Assembly (NCBI GenBank): GCA_017999435.1
Contig: JAGNLV010000002.1
Span: 124,001-188,000 of the forward strand
DNA from: Candidatus Zixiibacteriota bacterium
GTDB lineage: Bacteria > Zixibacteria > MSB-5A5 > GN15 > FEB-12
Length of the DNA stretch: 64,000 bases
Direction of reading: 5' to 3'
Made by a program: the position numbers and the translations under genes. Below, piece by piece: positions 39,646 through 43,237 of the stretch. Within the stretch, counting starts at the first letter, position 1; the number at the start of each line of letters is the position of its first letter. The notes under the pieces were generated by a model. The model saw only the letters and a list, made by a program, of their open reading frames with translations. It was not told the origin of the DNA and did no database searches.

Positions 39646-41697
<2,052 letters not shown>

Positions 41698-41877: not shown

Positions 41878-42339
41878 ATGCCATCGACCATGACCACCCG
41901 GATGCACTGGAAAGGCGGGATGCAGTTCGGGGCCACCGGCCAGTTCGGCCACGCCATCACCACCGACATCTCCCTGGCCGGCGGCGGACAGGAAGGCGGC
42001 TACAAACCGACCGAGCTGTTGTTCTGGGGGATGGCGGCCTGCACCGGGGTCGACGTTGTGCGCATCCTCCAAAAACAGCGCCAGGAACTGGCCGGTCTGG
42101 AGATCGAGATCACCGCCGAGCAGCCCGATGATTACCCCAAGCCGTTTCAAAATATACAGATACGCTACATTTTCCGGGGCCGGAACCTCGACCCGAAAAA
42201 GCTCCGCCAGGCGGTCGAGCTGTCGGAATCCAAATACTGCTCGGTAGGCCAGACCATTCGCCGCGAGACCGCCATCACCTCCCACATCGAAATCATCGCG
42301 TCCCAGCCGGAGGCGGCGGCCGCCGACGGCAATTCCTGA
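41878..42339 (+). CDS. OsmC/Ohr family protein
   Basis: 153 residues, cytosolic. The two redox cysteines are Cys55 (MAACTGVDV) and Cys121 (SKYCSVGQT), placed as in OsmC-type hydroperoxide reductases, with YKPTELLFWGMAACT and the C-terminal helix intact. It reduces organic hydroperoxides, probably using lipoamide or a thiol. AAAGGAG precedes ATG 41878. First of a five-gene group on the plus strand (OsmC, DUF302, selenoprotein candidate, FmdB, ferritin-like). Confidence 0.93.
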   Translation: MPSTMTTRMHWKGGMQFGATGQFGHAITTDISLAGGGQEGGYKPTELLFWGMAACTGVDVVRILQKQRQELAGLEIEITAEQPDDYPKPFQNIQIRYIFRGRNLDPKKLRQAVELSESKYCSVGQTIRRETAITSHIEIIASQPEAAAADGNS

Positions 42340-42406: not shown

Positions 42407-42820
42407 ATGCCGCACCATACCTCGCCGCCGACCGCCACCGCCTTCGCGCTGCGCCGGGAATCGACTAAACCGTTTGCCGAGGTAGTCGGCAACCTCGAGC
42501 GCCGGACGGCGGAGCACAATTTCCGGGTTCTGCACGTGCACGATGTGCAGGCGACGCTGGCGGAGAGGGGACTCGCGCGCGGACCACTCAAGATCATTGA
42601 GGTGTGCAACGCCGGTTTCGCCCATCAGGCGCTCGGCAAGGATATAAACGTCGCCCTCTTCATGCCCTGCCGTTTCGTGGTTCACACCGAGGGGGGCACG
42701 ACCGTCGTGACCCTCGCGCGGCCGTCAATGATCGCGGACCTGATGCCGCACGCCGGCCTGACCGAACTGGCCAGGGGGATCGAGCAGACGCTGACAGCCG
42801 TGGTGGAGGAGTCGCTTTAG
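42407..42820 (+). CDS. DUF302 protein
   Basis: 137 residues. The fold and motifs (EVCNAGFAHQALGKDINVALFMPCRFVVHTEGGTTVVTLARPSMIADLM, about 64-113) match DUF302. These proteins are of unknown function, often linked to sulfur oxidation or redox genes; the Cys in EVCN and MPC are typical of the family. It lies 67 nt after the OsmC gene on the same strand. Confidence 0.9.
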   Translation: MPHHTSPPTATAFALRRESTKPFAEVVGNLERRTAEHNFRVLHVHDVQATLAERGLARGPLKIIEVCNAGFAHQALGKDINVALFMPCRFVVHTEGGTTVVTLARPSMIADLMPHAGLTELARGIEQTLTAVVEESL

Positions 42821-42855: not shown

Positions 42856-43041
42856 ATGATGAAATGGCAACGCCTTCTGAAAGTGAAACCGGCGCTCTGG
42901 ACGCTCGCCGGCGGCGCCGTCGGCTTCGCCGTCTACCTGCTCTACGCCGGCCTCGGCTCGACCTGACCCCTCATGTGCAACCCGTATGTCACGACGACAG
43001 CGGGTGCGGTGACCGGGGCGGTCATGTCGGTAATGGAATGA
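42856..43041 (+). CDS. Candidate selenoprotein: DUF6132-like small membrane protein with in-frame UGA
   Basis: The frame from ATG 42856 (GGAG just upstream) codes for MMKWQRLLKVKPALWTL... and a helix (about 15-32), then GLGST, a UGA at 42964-42966, then PLMCNPYVTTTAGAVTGAVMSVME and a stop at 43039. From memory, members of DUF6132 have a helix, a T-C-P-I-T-S-N-P motif and a second helix; here T-UGA-P-L-M-C-N-P lines up exactly, with the UGA at the conserved Cys, and the sequence after it continues the family pattern. If UGA is read as selenocysteine the product is 61 residues with Sec37. The true stop would lie 10 nt before the FmdB start. selA/B/C/D lie outside the window, so this is a strong candidate, not proof. 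Confidence 0.7.
42980..43005 (+). promoter_or_regulatory. SECIS-like stem-loop downstream of the UGA
   Basis: Thirteen nt after the UGA, ACCCG (42980-42984) pairs with CGGGT (43001-43005) and TGTC (42987-42990) with GACA (42996-42999). The loop is ACGAC, with a 2-nt bulge (TA) on one side and a single G on the other. Position and bulged shape resemble bacterial SECIS elements; the loop lacks the preferred early G, so the fit is incomplete. Confidence 0.45.
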
Positions 43042-43051
43042 GGTAACGCAT

Positions 43052-43237
43052 ATGCCGTTGTACGAATACAAATGCCTTGACTGCGGAAAGGACTTCGAAG
43101 AACTCGTGAGCGCCGACCAGGAGGAAGTGTCCTGTCCGGCGTGCGGTTCGCAGGAAGCCTCCCGTAGACTCTCCACGTTTGCCTGGGGCAGCGTCGCCGC
43201 CTCGTGCGCCACCCCGTCCGGCAGCGGCTTCCGGTGA
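43052..43237 (+). CDS. FmdB-type zinc-ribbon protein
   Basis: 61 residues. MPLYEYKCLDCGKDFEELV...SCPACGS has the two CxxC pairs (Cys8/11 and Cys28/31) of the FmdB regulatory family, followed by the usual short Ser/Gly/Ala tail with one Cys and a terminal GFR. Its role is unknown; the family often accompanies redox or methylotrophy genes. The Shine-Dalgarno GAGGT overlaps the stop codon of the selenoprotein candidate, so the two are likely coupled. Confidence 0.92.
   Translation: MPLYEYKCLDCGKDFEELVSADQEEVSCPACGSQEASRRLSTFAWGSVAASCATPSGSGFR

Follow-up and report, generated by a model that had tools for sequence, protein, structure and literature searches.

The in-frame UGA of a small gene in the window (the whole 64,000-nucleotide stretch of Candidatus Zixiibacteriota DNA analysed here) very probably encodes selenocysteine (Sec), judging from its conservation with homologues and from the gene content of the host. 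The product reads MMKWQRLLKVKPALWTLAGGAVGFAVYLLYAGLGST-U-PLMCNPYVTTTAGAVTGAVMSVME-stop; its frame has only one TGA inside it, which is followed by 24 sense codons and a terminal TGA (43039-43041); ATG 42859 is an alternative start. The original prediction had proposed this frame with its UGA, residues and coordinates, with FmdB beginning 10 nt past its end and in a group of OsmC, DUF302, FmdB and ferritin. Translation and searches of Pfam and NCBIfam bear it out: the gap between the terminal TGA and the FmdB start is 10 nt, and the group consists of OsmC, DUF302, an FmdB zinc ribbon and a rubrerythrin-family protein (Table 1).

Table 1. Position of the putative selenoprotein gene, its RNA hairpins and its neighbours in the window.
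Feature	Position	Strand	Basis or remark
DsbH/DUF255 thioredoxin-like protein, operon neighbour	39646..41697	+	PF03190, E 6e-78; synteny
OsmC-family protein, operon neighbour	41878..42339	+	PF02566; synteny
DUF302 protein, operon neighbour	42407..42820	+	PF03625; synteny
Putative selenoprotein gene	42856..43041	+	61 residues including Sec; coordinates include the stop codon
In-frame UGA, probable Sec codon (residue 37)	42964..42966	+	UGA in 70 homologues, Cys in others
Hairpin 1, bulged stem-loop from 13 nt past the UGA	42980..43005	+	-13.6 kcal/mol
Hairpin 2, covarying 7-bp stem with GGG apex; candidate SelB-binding part of SECIS	43009..43025	+	
FmdB-family zinc ribbon protein, next gene	43052..43237	+	TIGR02605; synteny, also at Cys homologues

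There are many homologues that share the UGA. Matches were found in 62 of 132 Zixiibacteriota genomes searched, and 53 of them contained exactly one TGA inside the match (42 of the window's family and 11 of a sister family). The TGA falls in the identical column in 53/53 of these read-through homologues and is followed by 24-33 codons, with no indels around the motif, whose most frequent loop is G-S-T-U-x-x-M-C-N-P. A further 7 genomes of the class encode Cys versions without any interruption (such as SGTCPISSNPY and GSQCMILCNE). Outside the phylum, a search with a DNA pattern containing TGA yielded UGA contigs of Candidatus Fischerbacteria (L099) and of an unplaced MAG (L094), while a Nostoc match (L082) to the pattern was rejected as chance. 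In the phylum of L099, homologues occur in 24 of the 199 genomes searched: five have UGA at the column, four of these being of the CAGSTUGITGNP type, and all others have Cys (GCSTGTCPLTATP-type). In the phylum of L094, a match was found in 14 of 149 genomes, and 12 of these have the UGA form. The UGA thus occupies one column in 70/70 read-through UGA homologues (53 from Zixiibacteriota and 17 from these two groups), at which 20 other sampled homologues have Cys, and this U/C column is one of three invariant columns in a 59-row alignment. Such a column was what the original prediction had proposed to look for in homologues, and two of its three routes to refutation, absence of UGA in relatives and correction of the TGA by raw reads, lead nowhere: the relatives do have UGA, and a single-base error is no explanation because the UGA recurs in 70 genomes. 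A tree of 47 columns, with many forks unresolved, requires three changes between Sec and Cys, of which well-supported branches force two or more.

Two divergent homologues (L212, G468:C117:62003-62134; L213, G467:C12:70331-70456) lack both Sec and Cys at the column (motifs GAGADLLSNP and GIEDILSNP), and their genomes also carry a UGA form; they are perhaps redox-less partner subunits. Weak matches in two genomes (G084, G120) were left out as unrelated proteins or frames. A protein search of a plasmid collection found nothing.

The codons past the UGA behave in evolution like protein-coding sequence. In the 53 Zixiibacteriota sequences, no stop occurs in frame within the next 22 codons (0/53), compared with 48/53 and 21/53 in the other two forward frames. 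Moreover, dN/dS downstream of the UGA in 43 close pairs was 0.30 in frame, while the two alternative frames gave 1.04 and 1.89, indicating that the downstream half is under protein-level selection in frame; the upstream value (0.25) is similar. The UGA is aligned with the Cys of homologues, and the gene shows coding conservation on both sides of it. These data leave hardly any probability for an ordinary stop that would end a 36-residue single-helix peptide before a noncoding remainder, even though this is the standard-code reading of the frame and TGA terminates other genes of the genome as well as this gene itself: the open frame and the low dN/dS are specific to one frame, and the Cys homologues pass uninterrupted through the same column. 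On such comparative grounds, the ordinary stop as sole reading may be regarded as already refuted.

With regard to the host, its 3.5-Mb genome (98% complete) has the genes for Sec biosynthesis and insertion, namely tRNA-Sec (67.9 bits; SeC with anticodon TCA by ARAGORN), SelA (501 bits), SelB (313 bits) and SelD (377 bits). All four components named for checking in the original prediction were thus found, which disposes of its third route to refutation, a genome without machinery. The SelD gene (L131, G000:C3:411295-412218) has its own in-frame TGA in the motif CAGUASK. Each of the 53 Zixiibacteriota UGA genomes has one or more of tRNA-Sec, SelA and SelD; since nearly all genomes of the phylum have the machinery, co-occurrence inside it gives no contrast. 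Outside Zixiibacteriota, on the other hand, SelA was present in 6/6 UGA-form genomes tested versus 1/19 Cys-form genomes (Fisher p = 4e-5), and tRNA-Sec in both genomes of the first extra-phylum UGA contigs (L099 and L094). These results bear on the idea that the UGA is read as another amino acid through a reassigned code, a suppressor tRNA or a leaky stop. Downstream conservation alone would fit such readthrough too, but we consider it highly improbable, because the alternative at the column is Cys in the 20 sampled homologues, UGA forms are found where SelA is, the full machinery and a Sec-containing SelD occur in the same genomes, SECIS-like hairpins are conserved, and TGA also ends the gene itself. 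Thus, Sec is very probably incorporated at UGA 42964 itself.

Many genomes (L101-L118, L120, L124) also have a second SelD without TGA, which sits in a far longer open frame of ~560-900 aa and is presumably a fusion protein. In one genome, the SelA match (G058:C64:9741-11075) contains one in-frame TGA, which may reflect a frame error, decay or recoding.

The RNA downstream of the UGA contains two hairpins in tandem. Folding all 55 sequences together with RNAalifold yielded little structure, since hairpin 1 forms its inner pairs at different places from one sequence to the next; accordingly, synonymous-shuffle and helix-scan tests were used. In 49 sequences, the regions of hairpin 1 (t = -10.2) and hairpin 2 (t = -6.4) were more stable than their synonymous shuffles, whereas an upstream control region showed no excess stability (t = -1.3). 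A blind scan of all helices near the UGA, run on 49 non-redundant sequences, placed the helix +46/+60 (numbered from the U of UGA) at the top for pairing, and its covariation was high. In this hairpin 2, six of the seven pairs show changes on both sides (e.g., GUGACC-GGUG-CGGUCAU, GUGGCC-GGGG-CGGCCAU and ACAGCC-GGUG-CGGCUGU), and its covariation score was reached by 0/500 shuffles. Its apex GG(U/G) is like that of bacterial SECIS, with the GG being also an invariant Gly codon, and eight sequences have the loop GGUCU, which we take to be the same as the loop of E. coli fdhF. As a control, the SelD hairpin of the same genomes has a covarying stem and a G-first apex at +16 to +32 in 39 relatives. 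Hairpin 2 is not clearly visible in the phylum of L094, and Rfam gave nothing at the gathering threshold for either the selenoprotein locus or the SelD locus. The bulged stem-loop that the original prediction placed after the UGA is real and under selection, but the second hairpin is the better candidate for the SelB-binding element.

In the usual bacterial SECIS model, 16-37 nt separate the UGA from the loop (PMC13188914). In the window, hairpin 1 agrees with it in distance (loop ~24 nt past the UGA) and energy but lacks a G among the first two bases of its loop, while hairpin 2 agrees in stem, loop and energy (-8.7) but has its loop ~49 nt from the UGA. It is conceivable that hairpin 1 alone is the SECIS at the canonical distance and hairpin 2 has another function, a reading to which we give somewhat less than even weight. 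Its position and the strongest excess stability of the region speak for it; on the other hand, its loop and inner pairs lack conservation and the covariation of its outer pairs is weak, while hairpin 2 covaries strongly and shares the G-first apex with the SelD hairpin of the same genomes. The tandem arrangement would reconcile spacing and loop if folding of hairpin 1 brings hairpin 2 effectively closer to the UGA. Our tentative overall proposal is a widespread family of membrane selenoproteins with the SelB-binding hairpin ~49 nt off, in which the intervening hairpin folds out ~26 nt and restores the effective distance, and in which Sec may carry sulfane sulfur or electrons at the membrane face. 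The tandem hairpins make the distance rule of bacterial SECIS directly testable.

To get insights into the protein, we predicted its structure by AlphaFold2 with the 59-row alignment. The model (mean pLDDT 72, moderate) has helices at residues 5-33 and 43-59, with U37 and C41 in the loop joining them (GSTUPLMCNP, Cys at U+4, i.e., UxxxC). Four Lys/Arg precede the first helix, and so the positive-inside rule suggests a cytoplasmic N-terminus and a periplasmic Sec loop. The helices are glycine-rich with weak glycine-zipper matches, and Foldseek against PDB gave nothing significant (best E 0.8). The position of the partner Cys differs between most Sec and most Cys forms: it is at U+4 in 55 of the 70 UGA forms (-5 or -6 in nine, neither in six) versus -5 in 18/20 Cys forms.

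The gene order OsmC-DUF302-[Sec protein]-FmdB recurs across Zixiibacteriota loci, often with DsbH upstream, while at some loci only OsmC and FmdB were detected. At two Zixiibacteriota Cys forms, a thioredoxin-like protein follows FmdB. In the phylum containing Fischerbacteria, several Cys forms are near OsmC, and one Cys locus examined in detail has a YgaP-like membrane domain upstream and rhodanese and OsmC downstream. Of the UGA forms in the third lineage, one is oriented divergently from a rhodanese-YgaP fusion, one neighbours a CsoR-type metal-sensitive repressor and one adjoins DUF302 and FmdB. Neither the OsmC nor the FmdB gene of the window contains an in-frame UGA, and this OsmC showed a weak match, far under the cut-off, to NCBIfam NF041052 (OsmC-related (seleno)protein).

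The conservation of the operon DsbH-OsmC-DUF302-[Sec protein]-FmdB points to a role of the product as a membrane thiol/selenol protein in the handling of sulfane sulfur or peroxide. The product would be a 61-residue two-helix inner-membrane selenoprotein, with Sec inserted by SelA, SelB, tRNA-Sec and SelD of the host together with the downstream hairpins in the coding region. Sec in the short interhelix loop would face the periplasm and pair with the Cys four residues on, cycling between selenol/thiol and selenenylsulfide or carrying sulfane sulfur, in the setting of an operon for thiol, persulfide or peroxide handling. The computational results establish the homology, the UGA/Cys column, the machinery, protein-level selection beyond the UGA, the RNA structure and the synteny, from which we infer the incorporation of Sec itself, the topology, the redox partner and the substrate. 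Membrane sulfane-sulfur or thiol-peroxide chemistry is favoured because the neighbours include rhodanese, YgaP-like, OsmC, DUF302 and thioredoxin-like proteins, though we give a specific thiol/persulfide role somewhat less than an even chance. A selenoprotein with a structural or metal-binding role instead, i.e., a glycine-rich membrane hairpin whose Sec and Cys are metal ligands together with FmdB, seems rather unlikely to us. The glycine-rich helices with their zipper matches, the six UGA forms without a partner Cys nearby, the zinc ribbon of FmdB and the CsoR-type repressor next to one UGA form are in line with that role, but a Cys sits at +4 in 55 of the 70 UGA forms and at -5 or -6 in another nine, and the neighbours are mainly thiol, sulfur and peroxide proteins.

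The original prediction gave a T-C-P-I-T-S-N-P motif for DUF6132, which is right for the Cys homologues, four of which exceed the cut-off of Pfam PF19628 (24.6-28.1 bits versus 23.2), but the window protein itself did not match PF19628 even at E 10, and another UGA form (L062) stayed under the cut-off (E 0.011). Thus, the window protein is homologous to DUF6132 but falls outside it by the Pfam criterion, being linked to it by Cys homologues of the same phylum; these also adjoin FmdB and are therefore probable orthologues. NCBIfam assigned the window protein to no family, and release 20.0, which includes models for many selenoprotein families, gave no specific match to any of the 59 members. 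Neither DUF6132 nor a matching motif is in the 2026 inventory of 119 prokaryotic selenoprotein families and subfamilies (PMC13188914, Table 1). The literature search found no relevant paper on "DUF6132", the family is absent from those that name Zixibacteria together with selenoproteins or selenocysteine, and no mention of it in published lists of selenoproteins was found; this comparison covers families other than hypothetical protein GOS_A of the 2008 GOS study (PMC2398784), which is given in a figure only. These results agree with the earlier statement that no description of selenocysteine in this small family is known. Our study adds a selenoprotein family that spans three bacterial lineages or more, with 70 loci read, and whose product a standard-code gene caller cuts at 36 residues or misses entirely. 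It also gives a domain of unknown function, DUF6132, a probable redox residue, and between its natural Cys and Sec versions the partner cysteine switches from -5 to +4.

Finally, the family can be compared with known systems. It shares with DUF6132 (PF19628) the two-helix layout and the [TC]-P-[IL]-[TS]-x-N-P loop, and most Cys homologues adjoin FmdB. The UGA forms differ from the Cys forms in having Sec in place of the second Cys, and they usually lose the first Cys and gain a new one at +4. Like the catalogued bacterial selenoproteins (PMC13188914), the family has UGA-encoded Sec, Cys homologues, the Sec machinery and a downstream hairpin, but its spacing is UxxxC whereas theirs is commonly UxxC or CxxU, and its proposed SECIS loop is farther from the UGA. 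Sec forms are known for the OsmC, FmdB, rhodanese and YeeE/YedE families (PMC13188914, Table 1), which likewise place Sec in sulfur- or thiol-handling families and include those of the operon neighbours; in contrast to all of these, the present protein is a predicted two-helix membrane protein with a GSTUxxMCNP loop.
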